Positions 60,443-64,000 of a DNA stretch of 64,000 nucleotides are shown one piece after another; the first letter of the stretch is position 1, and every line of letters starts with the position of its first letter. This stretch comes from an uncultured Collinsella sp. (GTDB lineage Bacteria > Actinomycetota > Coriobacteriia > Coriobacteriales > Coriobacteriaceae): positions 62,001-126,000 of the forward strand of contig CAKTWK010000001.1 in the NCBI GenBank assembly GCA_934630735.1, in the 5' to 3' direction. A program made the translations under genes and the position numbers. Under the pieces are notes generated by a model, which made no database searches, was not told the origin of the DNA, and was given only the letters and a program-made list of their open reading frames with translations.

Positions 60443-60567
60443 GGACGTCCTCATGCCCGCTCTATGCCACAAAATGTTAGGTTAATGCCTGCTGCCCATA
60501 CTCGCGCCCGCGCACGGTACAATGGTTGGGTTACGACCAACGTGCCAATAACCAAAAAGGAGCCGCT

Positions 60568-61911
60568 ATGATCGATCGCTATACCCGCCCGGAGATGGGA
60601 CACATCTTCTCCCTCGAGAACAAGTACGCCATTTGGCAGGAGATTGAGGTCCTGGCCTGCGAGGCTCAGGCGGAGCTCGGCAAGATCGGTATTTCCAAAG
60701 AAGAGGCCCAGTGGATTCGCGACCACGCCAGCTTTGAGAAGGCGAAGGTTGACGAGATCGAGGAGGTCACGCGCCACGATGTCATCGCCTTCCTGACCAA
60801 CATGAAGGAATATATCGACGCCGATGTTCCCGAGGGCGAGCCCAAGCCTAGCCGCTGGGTTCACTATGGTATGACCAGCTCCGACCTGGGTGATACGGCT
60901 CTGTGCTATCAGCTTACTCAGGCGTGTGACCTGATTATCGAGGACGTCAAGAAGCTCGGCGTGATCTGCAAGCGCCGCGCCTTCGAGGAGCGCAATACGC
61001 TCTGCGCCGGCCGAACCCATGGCATCCATGCCGAGCCGATGACCTTCGGCATGAAGTTTGGCTCTTGGGCATGGGAGCTCAAGCGCGATCTCGATCGTCT
61101 TGAGGATGCTCGCAAGAACGTTGCCTTCGGTGCCATCTCCGGTGCCGTCGGCACCTACAGCTCCATCGAGCCGTTCGTCGAGGAGTACGTCTGTGAGCAC
61201 CTAGGTCTGGTCCACGATCCGCTGTCCACGCAGGTCATCAGCCGCGATCACCATGCCTACCTTGCCGGCGTGCTTGCCACTACGGCGGCCACCTGCGAGC
61301 GCATCGCGACCGAGGTTCGCAACCTGCAGAAGACCGATACGCTCGAGGCCGAGGAGCCCTTCCGCAAGGGCCAAAAGGGCAGCTCCGCCATGCCGCACAA
61401 GCGCAACCCGATCACCATGGAGAAGGTCTGTGGCCTATCGCGCGTCGTGAAGTCCAACGCCCAGGTCGCCTTTGACAACGTTGCCCTGTGGCACGAGCGC
61501 GACATTTCGCACTCCTCCGCCGAGCGCGTCGCCCAGGCCGATAGCTTCATCGCACTCGACCACATGTTCCAGTGCCTCATCCGCGTCATCGACGGCCTGC
61601 AGCTGTATCCGGCTCGCATGATGGCCAACCTCAACAAGACCCGCGGCCTCATCTTCTCCTCCAAGGTGCTGCTGGCCCTCGTCGACACGGGCATCACCCG
61701 CGAGGATGCCTATGCTATCGTGCAGGAAAACGCCATGGCTACCTGGCACGAAGTGCAGGATTGTGTTTCCGGCCCCACCTTTAAGGAGCGTCTCGAGGCC
61801 GATCCGCGCTGCACCGTCAGCCAGGAGAAGCTCGACGAGATCTTTGATCCGTGGGACTTCCTCACCCGCATCGACACAGTCTTCGATCGCCTGGAGCAGC
61901 TCGAGTTCTAA
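60568..61911 (+). CDS. purB: Adenylosuccinate lyase
   Basis: Releases fumarate from adenylosuccinate and from SAICAR, the two lyase steps of purine synthesis. The 447-residue product has the fumarase-superfamily signature SSAMPHKRNP near residue 272. The ATG at 60568 (MIDRYTRPEMGHIF) has AAGGAG six bases upstream; the open frame runs a little further up without a site. It is transcribed alone and followed by a terminator. It uses the product of PurA (10383-11669). Confidence 0.97.
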   Translation: MIDRYTRPEMGHIFSLENKYAIWQEIEVLACEAQAELGKIGISKEEAQWIRDHASFEKAKVDEIEEVTRHDVIAFLTNMKEYIDADVPEGEPKPSRWVHYGMTSSDLGDTALCYQLTQACDLIIEDVKKLGVICKRRAFEERNTLCAGRTHGIHAEPMTFGMKFGSWAWELKRDLDRLEDARKNVAFGAISGAVGTYSSIEPFVEEYVCEHLGLVHDPLSTQVISRDHHAYLAGVLATTAATCERIATEVRNLQKTDTLEAEEPFRKGQKGSSAMPHKRNPITMEKVCGLSRVVKSNAQVAFDNVALWHERDISHSSAERVAQADSFIALDHMFQCLIRVIDGLQLYPARMMANLNKTRGLIFSSKVLLALVDTGITREDAYAIVQENAMATWHEVQDCVSGPTFKERLEADPRCTVSQEKLDEIFDPWDFLTRIDTVFDRLEQLEF

Positions 61912-61983
61912 TTGACCGATTTGGGACGCAATCAAACCAATTAGTTTTCTTTTGGTCCCAGTTGATGTATGACTTTCTAGCCC

Positions 61984-62021
61984 AAGCCCCGTTGGTAACC
62001 CGTTTTGCCAACGGGGCTTTT
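61984..62021 (+). terminator. Terminator after purB
   Basis: A perfect 12-bp stem AAGCCCCGTTGG with its complement is followed by TTTTG. The tail is short but the stem is strong. Confidence 0.75.
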
Positions 62022-62116
62022 GCGTGAGAGTGTCGGGAAAGCTTCACTTCAACAGGCGATTTTATGATGCGGGAGCATCGCTTGCCGATAATTTGACTCT
62101 TCCGACAAACACTAGC

Positions 62117-62147
62117 TTGCCAGTCTCAGTCGGGGGGGGGGTATCCT
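62117..62147 (+). promoter_or_regulatory. Promoter with a ten-G spacer, candidate phase-variable
   Basis: TTGCCA (62117-62122, one mismatch to TTGACA) and TATCCT (62142-62147) are separated by 19 bases, of which the last ten are all G (62132-62141). Loss of two Gs would give the optimal 17-base spacer. The same design controls porA expression in Neisseria. It lies 62 bases upstream of a surface-protein gene. The gap 61912-62209 otherwise holds only the purB terminator. Confidence 0.6.
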
Positions 62148-62209
62148 TAAGCCAATTTTAATGTGTGGGAGAATGCTGCATTTTTTCACGAGAGATTGGA
62201 CTTAGGGGA

Positions 62210-64000
62210 ATGAGAAAAGGGTTTTGGAGGATAGCCGCTGCGTTCTGCTTGGCTTTAGCTGCTGCGTCAATTGCAGGTATGGCGTCGCCTTCGACGGCTG
62301 TGGCGTCTGAGATACAGAGTGGGAACGTTTACGTCTATAGCAATCAGCACAGCCTTTTCGAAAACGGCTCAGTAGCCGTTGGACAGAGACTGTCGGGAAG
62401 TTTGGACTTCTGTTTGCAAGGAAATGTCCCTTGGGAAAAACTGGGTTCGGCTGCTCAAGATAAAAAGAACTATAAAGTTACGGTTTCCGATGATGACCGA
62501 GACAACATTTCTCTGTCTTCCAGTGATTCTGGTCAGTGGTCCTATGTATTGAATCCTAAGACCGTCGGCGATGGAAAGCTAAGGATTACCGTCACATTTA
62601 ATTACGGTGACTACAGCGCCGAGGGATATCTTGAGATTAGCTTGGCCGAAAAACTCAATCCGGTGACGGCTGTTAAGTACATAAGTGGTTCTAACGAAAC
62701 ATCGTCTTCGAGTGCAGCAATCTATTACACGGATAACTGCTCGGTTTGTGGCAAGGCGCACTGCGGTGATGCTTCGGGCTATATCTTGTTTGCCTTTGAG
62801 CGCCCTAGCGAGGAGCCGACGGTATTTGATATCGATAGCACTAGAAATGACTGGTCAAGTTCAAAATTCATTACTTCGATGAGCCTGAATGGGGTCGAGT
62901 CTTACGACAAGGACGGTTACCAGAAGAAGGCGCCGATTCGCATAACTCCTTGTGGTAAAGATGGAAATGAAGTAGAGGTAAGGCTGAACTATTTCCAGGA
63001 CGACCTCCAGACGAAAAAGCTTTGCGACGCTTCGTGGCATGAGCAGAATCCTGCTTATGTAGAGGAAAACTTAAGCGGTACTATGGCTGTTGGCTCCCGT
63101 GCTTGGATTGGGGCGGCCGATCTGATTAGCATTCAACTGAATCCCGTCGGACAGACTTGCCGAGAGAGCTATTCTTCGCGAGAATTCAAGTACACAATCA
63201 AAGATGGAAACGGCGTTGTTTCAATTGACGAATACGGGATCGTTTGGGCCAAAAAGGCGGGCGTCGCGACGATTATCGTTACTGATCCGTTCGGGCAGGA
63301 GCATACCGGGACTATCAAGGTAGTTGCGCTTCCTTCCGAAAAGCCCTCTATTAAGTTTCTTGATACAAAAGAAATTACATTATCTACTGATAGCAATAGT
63401 TCTGCCTACGATGGCTTCCGCGTTCTCGACTGCACGCAACGCGATTTTTACGGCACCGTGATGAGTTCCGATGCGGTTGAGCTTCTTAAAGACTATCCAC
63501 ACCTCGACTACTATCGATTCAAGTCTAACGATACGAATATTGCTCAGGTTGGTGAAAGAGCATTAGACCAGGCTACCGCGGGCTATGAGGTTTCTGCGGT
63601 TAGCAGCGGCACCACGACAGTTGATGTATATCTCGGGGATCCCGATAATGGCGGTGTTCTCTGCGATACGTTGACCATTCACGTTGTGGGTCCCGGCGAG
63701 GAGCCAGCAAAGACTACGGTCTCCATTGCAGACGGTTATTCTGTCTCCATGAACAAGGGCACGACTCAGCAACTGAAGGCTAAGGTGTCTCCTGATGACA
63801 AAGCTGGCCAGGTTGTCTGGTCCTCTTCTAACGAGAGTGTCCTTACCGTTGACGCCAACGGTCTCGTCACTGCTGTTGGCGACGGTACCGCAAGTATCAC
63901 GGCAACGGTCGATGGCGTTTCTGCAACCACGGATGCGATTACGGTAACCACTCCGGTTGTAAAGGTGTCAGGCGTCAAGCTCAGCGCTTCAAACCTTAAG
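62210..64000 (+). CDS. Secreted Big_2-domain surface protein (cut by window edge)
   Basis: An open frame of 597 codons that reaches the window end without a stop. A signal peptide (MRKGFWRIAAAFCLALAAAS, cleavage near residue 31) is followed by beta-rich domains with several cysteines (CSVCGKAHC near residue 181). From about residue 510 a bacterial Ig-like domain of the Big_2 type is clear: QQLKAKVSPDD, VVWSSSNESVLTVDANGLVT and GDGTASITATVDG. More repeats and an anchor probably lie beyond the edge. AGGGGA directly precedes the ATG, a tight but usable site. Codon use is more AT-rich than its neighbours. The ten-G promoter spacer suggests on/off switching. Confidence 0.85.
   Translation, partial: MRKGFWRIAAAFCLALAAASIAGMASPSTAVASEIQSGNVYVYSNQHSLFENGSVAVGQRLSGSLDFCLQGNVPWEKLGSAAQDKKNYKVTVSDDDRDNISLSSSDSGQWSYVLNPKTVGDGKLRITVTFNYGDYSAEGYLEISLAEKLNPVTAVKYISGSNETSSSSAAIYYTDNCSVCGKAHCGDASGYILFAFERPSEEPTVFDIDSTRNDWSSSKFITSMSLNGVESYDKDGYQKKAPIRITPCGKDGNEVEVRLNYFQDDLQTKKLCDASWHEQNPAYVEENLSGTMAVGSRAWIGAADLISIQLNPVGQTCRESYSSREFKYTIKDGNGVVSIDEYGIVWAKKAGVATIIVTDPFGQEHTGTIKVVALPSEKPSIKFLDTKEITLSTDSNSSAYDGFRVLDCTQRDFYGTVMSSDAVELLKDYPHLDYYRFKSNDTNIAQVGERALDQATAGYEVSAVSSGTTTVDVYLGDPDNGGVLCDTLTIHVVGPGEEPAKTTVSIADGYSVSMNKGTTQQLKAKVSPDDKAGQVVWSSSNESVLTVDANGLVTAVGDGTASITATVDGVSATTDAITVTTPVVKVSGVKLSASNLK

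Follow-up and report, generated by a model that had tools for sequence, protein, structure and literature searches.

Switching of a promoter through the length of its spacer is already known from porA of Neisseria meningitidis, in which the gain or loss of a single G alters both spacing and transcription, as set out in the available portions of PMC3899988 and PMC7864442. In opc, according to the available text of PMC7864442, the poly-C tract instead covers the -35 element. The same portions describe tp0126 of Treponema pallidum, an unrelated gene in an unrelated lineage, with a poly-G between -35 and -10 that matches the geometry reported below, and with transcription reportedly best at 17 nt. 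Closer to the organism studied here, G-tract slippage acts on surface structures (sortase-dependent pili) of the gut actinobacterium Bifidobacterium breve UCC2003; the tracts studied there, however, lie within coding sequence and switch the reading frame, and its authors mention further promoter-spacer G tracts, for which the accessible part of the paper holds no details (PMC9187656). In Cutibacterium (Propionibacterium) acnes, another actinobacterial homopolymer, HPT_37, was placed by inference in the region separating -10 from -35, and expression differs between P. acnes strains (PMC4746626, available part). For Eggerthella lenta the available part of a preprint describes phase variation through inversions (PMC13174815). 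Our searches of the open-licence literature brought up neither a report on such G-tract promoters for Collinsella and the order to which it belongs nor an earlier description of the order-wide class presented here.

The locus studied here lies in a 64-kb stretch of Collinsella DNA, which as a whole is called the window, and comprises the following features:

60526..61911, + strand: upstream gene and longest open reading frame, an adenylosuccinate lyase of the purB type (Pfam Lyase_1, 1.1e-54; ADSL_C, 1.7e-23)
61972..62031, + strand: inverted repeat 3' of purB, with 27-nt arms that are 78% complementary
62117..62122, + strand: -35 element TTGCCA, a predicted hexamer matching TTGACA at 5/6 positions
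62123..62131, + strand: lead-in of 9 nt from the -35 to the G tract
62132..62141, + strand: G10 tract, on the non-template strand and adjoining the -10
62142..62147, + strand: -10 element TATCCT, a predicted hexamer matching TATAAT at 4/6 positions
62153..62156, + strand: predicted transcription start region, placed about 7 nt past the -10
62159..62161, + strand: in-frame TAA, read from the sequence, past the tract and ahead of the start codon
62210..64000, + strand: gene of an exported Big_2 protein, with its ATG at 62210, running past the window end

The spacer between the two predicted hexamers (62123-62141) is 19 nt long and contains the G10 homopolymer, so that the coordinates bear out the original prediction of ten Gs in a 19-nt spacer between TTGCCA and TATCCT. 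The prediction of a secreted Big_2 protein downstream holds as well: by eye the N-terminus of the product is signal-peptide-like, and the Big_2 domain is matched with an E value of 5.9e-18. The proposed likeness to a "porA/opc design" stands for porA, and not for opc, where the poly-C overlies the -35 (PMC7864442, available text). With porA the predicted promoter shares a spacer that contains poly-G, and the product that it would control is, as in porA, a surface protein, though here a putative one; organism and gene are unrelated (PMC3899988 and PMC7864442, portions available).

The tract is the sole run of G or C of at least 8 in the window, the runners-up being G5 and C6. Runs of 10 or more on both strands are expected about 0.1 times under a first-order Markov model and 0.002-0.003 times under orders 4-5; a run of mere 8 would be unremarkable, dinucleotide shuffles giving a mean of 2.0 matches and reaching 3 in 36 of 100 cases. 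A standard promoter scan made no call at the G10 site, because its spacers were limited to 16-18. Rfam, applied at its gathering threshold, matched nothing between 61800 and 62400, which led us to reject a listed RNA element at the promoter region. On the purB side, a terminator-like match lies at 61999-62015, with shuffles giving a mean of 0.6 such matches, and the inverted repeat is probably a terminator that insulates purB from the switch gene.

We consider it likely that the site is a slippage-prone promoter of the sigma-70 type and of the porA kind, in which changes of spacing would vary Big_2 transcription between sister cells, and it would probably work as a switch that goes at random between on and off or between high and low. 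Slippage of the G tract during replication, which within a strain is presumed, would add or remove single bases, so that tracts of G8, G9 and G10 would set the predicted hexamers 17, 18 and 19 nt apart; this shift, if both hexamers are used as proposed, would in turn change how strongly the gene of a presumably surface-anchored Big_2 protein is transcribed. The textbook spacer optimum is 17. Under that optimum the G10 allele would be weak, yet this may not hold for the present class of promoters, among which spacers of 19 nt are more frequent than any other. Poly-G geometry could, by conjecture, lift the best spacing above 17.

A second allele comes from G005, an uncultured Collinsella metagenome-assembled genome, where the orthologous gene lies on a contig of 72,985 bases (CANRSF010000009.1). 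Its promoter reads TTGTCA, 9 nt, G9 and TATCCT, with a spacer of 18. In an alignment of 1322 columns with 92.7% identity, the -10 is identical, the leader is nearly unchanged, and the lead-in has kept its length while its sequence has diverged. Thus, between two alleles from two lineages, the tract differs (10 vs 9) and the rest of the spacer is constant in length. The alignment holds three further single-base indels, one of them in a leader T run (6 vs 5), and therefore the 10/9 difference alone is no proof of hypermutability. The protein encoded in G005 has 1126 aa and contains Big_2 in four stretches; its C-terminus consists of LANTGD followed by a hydrophobic segment and a basic tail, an arrangement that we read as a sortase-type anchor. 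Together with the Big_2 domains and the export-signal-like N-terminus, this anchor-like end would fit a surface location of the product in the window. This locus is the only further ortholog with DNA among 58 relatives, 43 genus genomes and 65 family genomes, and the comparison of G-run length across related genomes that had been suggested accordingly gives G10 against G9. The Big_2 gene was found in 1 of the 43 genus genomes, 26% of the words sampled from the window recur in the nearest comparison genome, and the three matches of a contig-wide scan besides G005 belong to other bacteria, with Big_2-type proteins that are only distantly similar. Many close relatives are present in the protein database, as amino-acid sequences.

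Collinsella belongs to the Coriobacteriales, an order that GTDB draws more widely than NCBI does and that is taken here in the wide sense. We searched 395 genomes of this order for the pattern TTGNNN-N{4,11}-G8-N{0,3}-TATNNT and obtained 78 rows, which after removal of three overlapping repeats represent 75 distinct sites in 52 of the 395 genomes and 34 of the 123 genera, at least one of them (L021, in G021) sitting in a coding frame. The backward control gave 5 matches in the same genomes (binomial p 4e-17), and the joint layout of promoter and tract is therefore rare by chance. The class is also restricted in its distribution. In a phylum sample of 246 genomes it was matched in 6 of 18 genomes from the order and in 3 of 228 outside it, the control pattern likewise matching 3 of these 228; the comparison of 52/395 within the order with 3/228 outside gives p 4e-8. 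Positions 4-6 of the -35, left unconstrained by the pattern, are A in 44, C in 29 and A in 40 of the 75 sites. Spacers of 18, 19 and 20 nt occur 14, 23 and 12 times (18-20 in 49/75), as against the optimum of 17 given for porA in the portion of PMC7864442 available. A lead-in of 9 nt is the commonest value (25/75), and the window promoter has exactly the modal anatomy of the class. The layout thus defines a lineage-restricted class of promoters that is strongly over-represented and in many cases lies 5' of exported proteins.

The class distinguishes G from C. A C8 version of the pattern gave 6 sites in the order genomes against 5 control matches and is thus unenriched in the order searched here. 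In its preference for G the class departs from HPT_37, whose tract is C5 or C7 (PMC4746626, available part). Such a strand bias (75 vs 6 sites) exceeds what a pure spacing model accounts for. Extended -10 promoters carry a G at position -14. A G run adjoining the -10 would always supply this G, whatever its length, and this may, as a conjecture, be the reason for the bias. The same bias lends some weight to another reading of the locus, in which the promoter is real and the tract serves as a fixed element of DNA shape or of recognition, for example one providing the G at -14, whose length drifts slowly with no part in switching. The position of the tract, which adjoins the -10 in 52/75 class sites, points the same way, as a pure spacing model does not need it. 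We nevertheless regard a fixed element as improbable, in view of the manner in which the G count varies among orthologs.

The G count is unequal in 6 of 10 ortholog pairs, which were picked by hand, some because unequal counts were already visible, and for which the counts are derived from assemblies and may be off by one. The unequal pairs are the window and G005 (10/9), G022 and G023 (8/9), G276 and G277 (11/10), G291 and G292 (10/11), G312 and G313 (10/9), and G071 and G077 (9/12). Equal counts in the other 4 of 10 (L190/L191, L172/L173, L165/L166 and L199/L200) would suit a fixed element. Against it, three pairs with identities of 95.6-99.8% across alignments exceeding 1.1 kb have the G tract as their sole indel: L184/L185 (98.4%, 1319 columns), L186/L187 (99.8%, 1320 columns) and L188/L189 (95.6%, 1141 columns), the columns being largely coding, where selection acts against indels. 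Besides the G tract, L163/L164 show four other indels and L172/L174 one. Also contrary to a fixed element is a single gene family that is preceded by 9, 9, 12 and 8 Gs in G071, G073, G077 and G082, respectively, the last of these unaligned. A further set concerns a bPH_2-type membrane protein (L172, L173, L174, L175, L199, L200 and L017; identified by Pfam in L172 and by eye in the rest), whose promoter G tract is present in four genera with counts of 8-12 and is apparently old and conserved.

A still smaller probability attaches to the tract being a passive repeat, with transcription from another start and the hexamers there by chance. Matches of 5/6 and 4/6, a 19-nt spacer and the silence of the standard scan are what such a repeat might look like. 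This reading is, however, hard to reconcile with the order-wide enrichment, with the TTGACA-like preference and the 18-20 peak of the spacers, or with the -10 kept identical in G005 despite a diverged region from the -35 to the tract; moreover, the scan (spacers 16-18) lists no other sense-strand promoter within 61850-62300.

Returning to the slippage-prone promoter, the genes behind other members of the class indicate what might be switched. We considered the genes downstream of 34 loci or regions with 39 of the 75 pattern sites; 14 of the 34 came from the pattern search and 20 were regions chosen by hand, partly ortholog pairs and the G255 cluster. An export- or membrane-like N-terminus was found in 23/33 downstream open reading frames, against 4/33 long open reading frames of the window (Fisher p 3e-6), as judged by a crude ad hoc hydropathy rule on the N-terminal segment, with control frames that include unchecked ones and a loose redundancy filter to 33 that leaves some relatives in. 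When relatives were merged by eye, 16/25 families were export- or membrane-like (p 6e-5). In G255, six genes for large exported proteins are clustered on contig C70 (L181, L182), each behind its own spacer promoter with G10 or G11. Five of the six proteins are alike at the N-terminus by eye, and the four that are readable to the end finish with LAKTGD, then a hydrophobic stretch and finally a basic tail. On a separate contig of G255 there is a seventh site of this kind. Other class promoters precede a cell-wall-binding repeat protein (L196), a C4-dicarboxylate transporter (L188, with L189 similar-looking), a GGDEF protein (L184, with L185 similar-looking) and the bPH_2 membrane protein of L172, with relatives in other genera by eye. 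Pfam gave no match for 5 of 10 proteins scanned.

In Collinsella itself, sites fitting a looser pattern precede a protein with weak SpaA and PA14 matches (L027), a DUF6020 protein (L022), a Lipoprotein_Ltp protein (L019), an ABC transporter (L020) and, in G030 and G028 (L018 and L025), AMP-binding enzymes, which we guess to be D-alanine ligases (dltA). The promoters of L018 and L025 consist of TTGCCA, 10 nt, G9 or G11 and TAGnCT, with spacers of 19 and 21.

On balance, we favour the view that the order uses a shared, lineage-specific class (TTGACA-like, about 9 nt, G8-11, TATnnT) to switch genes of surface and membrane proteins by slippage. The non-template G bias suggests a role of the tract in promoter recognition beyond spacing.

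Within the genus, G8 followed by TATNNT gave 8 matches in the 43 genus genomes against 0 in the backward control. Of the 8, 3 also fit a looser promoter pattern with a TTG, and one of these 3 is coding (G021); the looser pattern itself gave 16 against 9. We also surveyed tracts of G9 or longer in 14 Collinsella genomes. The 127 matches represent 119 distinct tracts once identical contexts were merged, and 111 after the removal of 8, namely five from L116 and two from L151 (low-complexity or artefact-like) and L142 (cut flank). L014, L015 and L017, from the same 14 genomes, are outside this count, and L015 and L017 are promoter-like. TAnnnT directly follows the tract in 9/111 cases, compared with 3, 4, 17, 11, 9 and 5 at six later offsets. 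The proposal that G9+ tracts of Collinsella are mostly promoter spacers was therefore rejected, as TAnnnT is unenriched directly after the tract; most tracts in the genus thus act otherwise, if at all, and a Collinsella G tract is by itself no evidence of promoter switching. What speaks for the window promoter is the G005 allele, together with an anatomy that fits the order-wide class exactly. As to the raw numbers, G9+ matches amount to 61 in G007, 32 in G027 and 120 in G029, and to 2 to 25 in the remaining 40 genus genomes; L116 (contig C6 of G008), with clustered runs of G40, G29, G17 and G14, has the look of an assembly or sequencing artefact.

Another part of the tracts is predicted to be coding. 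In the survey, 36/111 were called inside a predicted gene, some near the N-terminus of exported proteins. Across all surveyed tracts, 13 families have at least two members (46 tracts), with a variable G count in 12 of the 13. A coding G9-10 near the N-terminus recurs in L036, L064, L079, L083, L084, L092, L107 and L136; L036 carries a pilin-like QSIIEYVLI motif, the pilin reading being made by eye. The L036-type recurrent tract is likely a frame-switch contingency family. A further recurrent G9 or G10 is found just past the signal-peptide-like start of an exported protein in L067, L074, L081, L104, L115, L127, L129 and L140, of which 6/8 were called in frame, the exceptions being both G10 copies. 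In L021/L006 (G021), an in-frame G9 lies within the signal-peptide-like region of an exported protein with a putative resemblance to a C69 dipeptidase.

With such in-frame tracts near the N-termini of exported proteins in Collinsella, and with an open frame that happens to cross the tract in G005, one could suppose that the Big_2 gene varies by reading frame, at the level of translation, as the pilus genes of Bifidobacterium breve do. This is very improbable: the TAA at 62159-62161 stands in frame between the tract and the open reading frame, so that the tract is outside the coding frame in the window allele, for which a coding-tract contingency locus was ruled out, and the leader T run of 6 vs 5 means that any shared upstream frame is broken. 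An invertible promoter has an equally negligible probability and was rejected, since in 61900-62400 just one imperfect inverted pair flanks the promoter (62121-62131 and 62382-62392), which at 11 nt and 91% complementarity is chance-sized, with its left arm diverged in G005 and its right arm within the gene.

The phase variation originally predicted finds support, as far as sequence comparison can lend it, in the position of the tract within the putative spacer, in the 10 vs 9 allele, in the exclusion of a frame switch for the window allele and in the membership of the site in an over-represented, lineage-restricted class, whose near-identical orthologs differ in G count. This class, if confirmed, would be a more interesting result than the locus itself. 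The idea lends itself to a direct test, as deep-sequencing data that already exist would yield the G counts. Collinsella and related bacteria are common in the gut, and, should the switch hold true, it would be missed by genome annotation alone; if it operates throughout the order, surface-protein expression would differ among genetically near-identical cells, and phage sensitivity and contact with the host would perhaps differ too.
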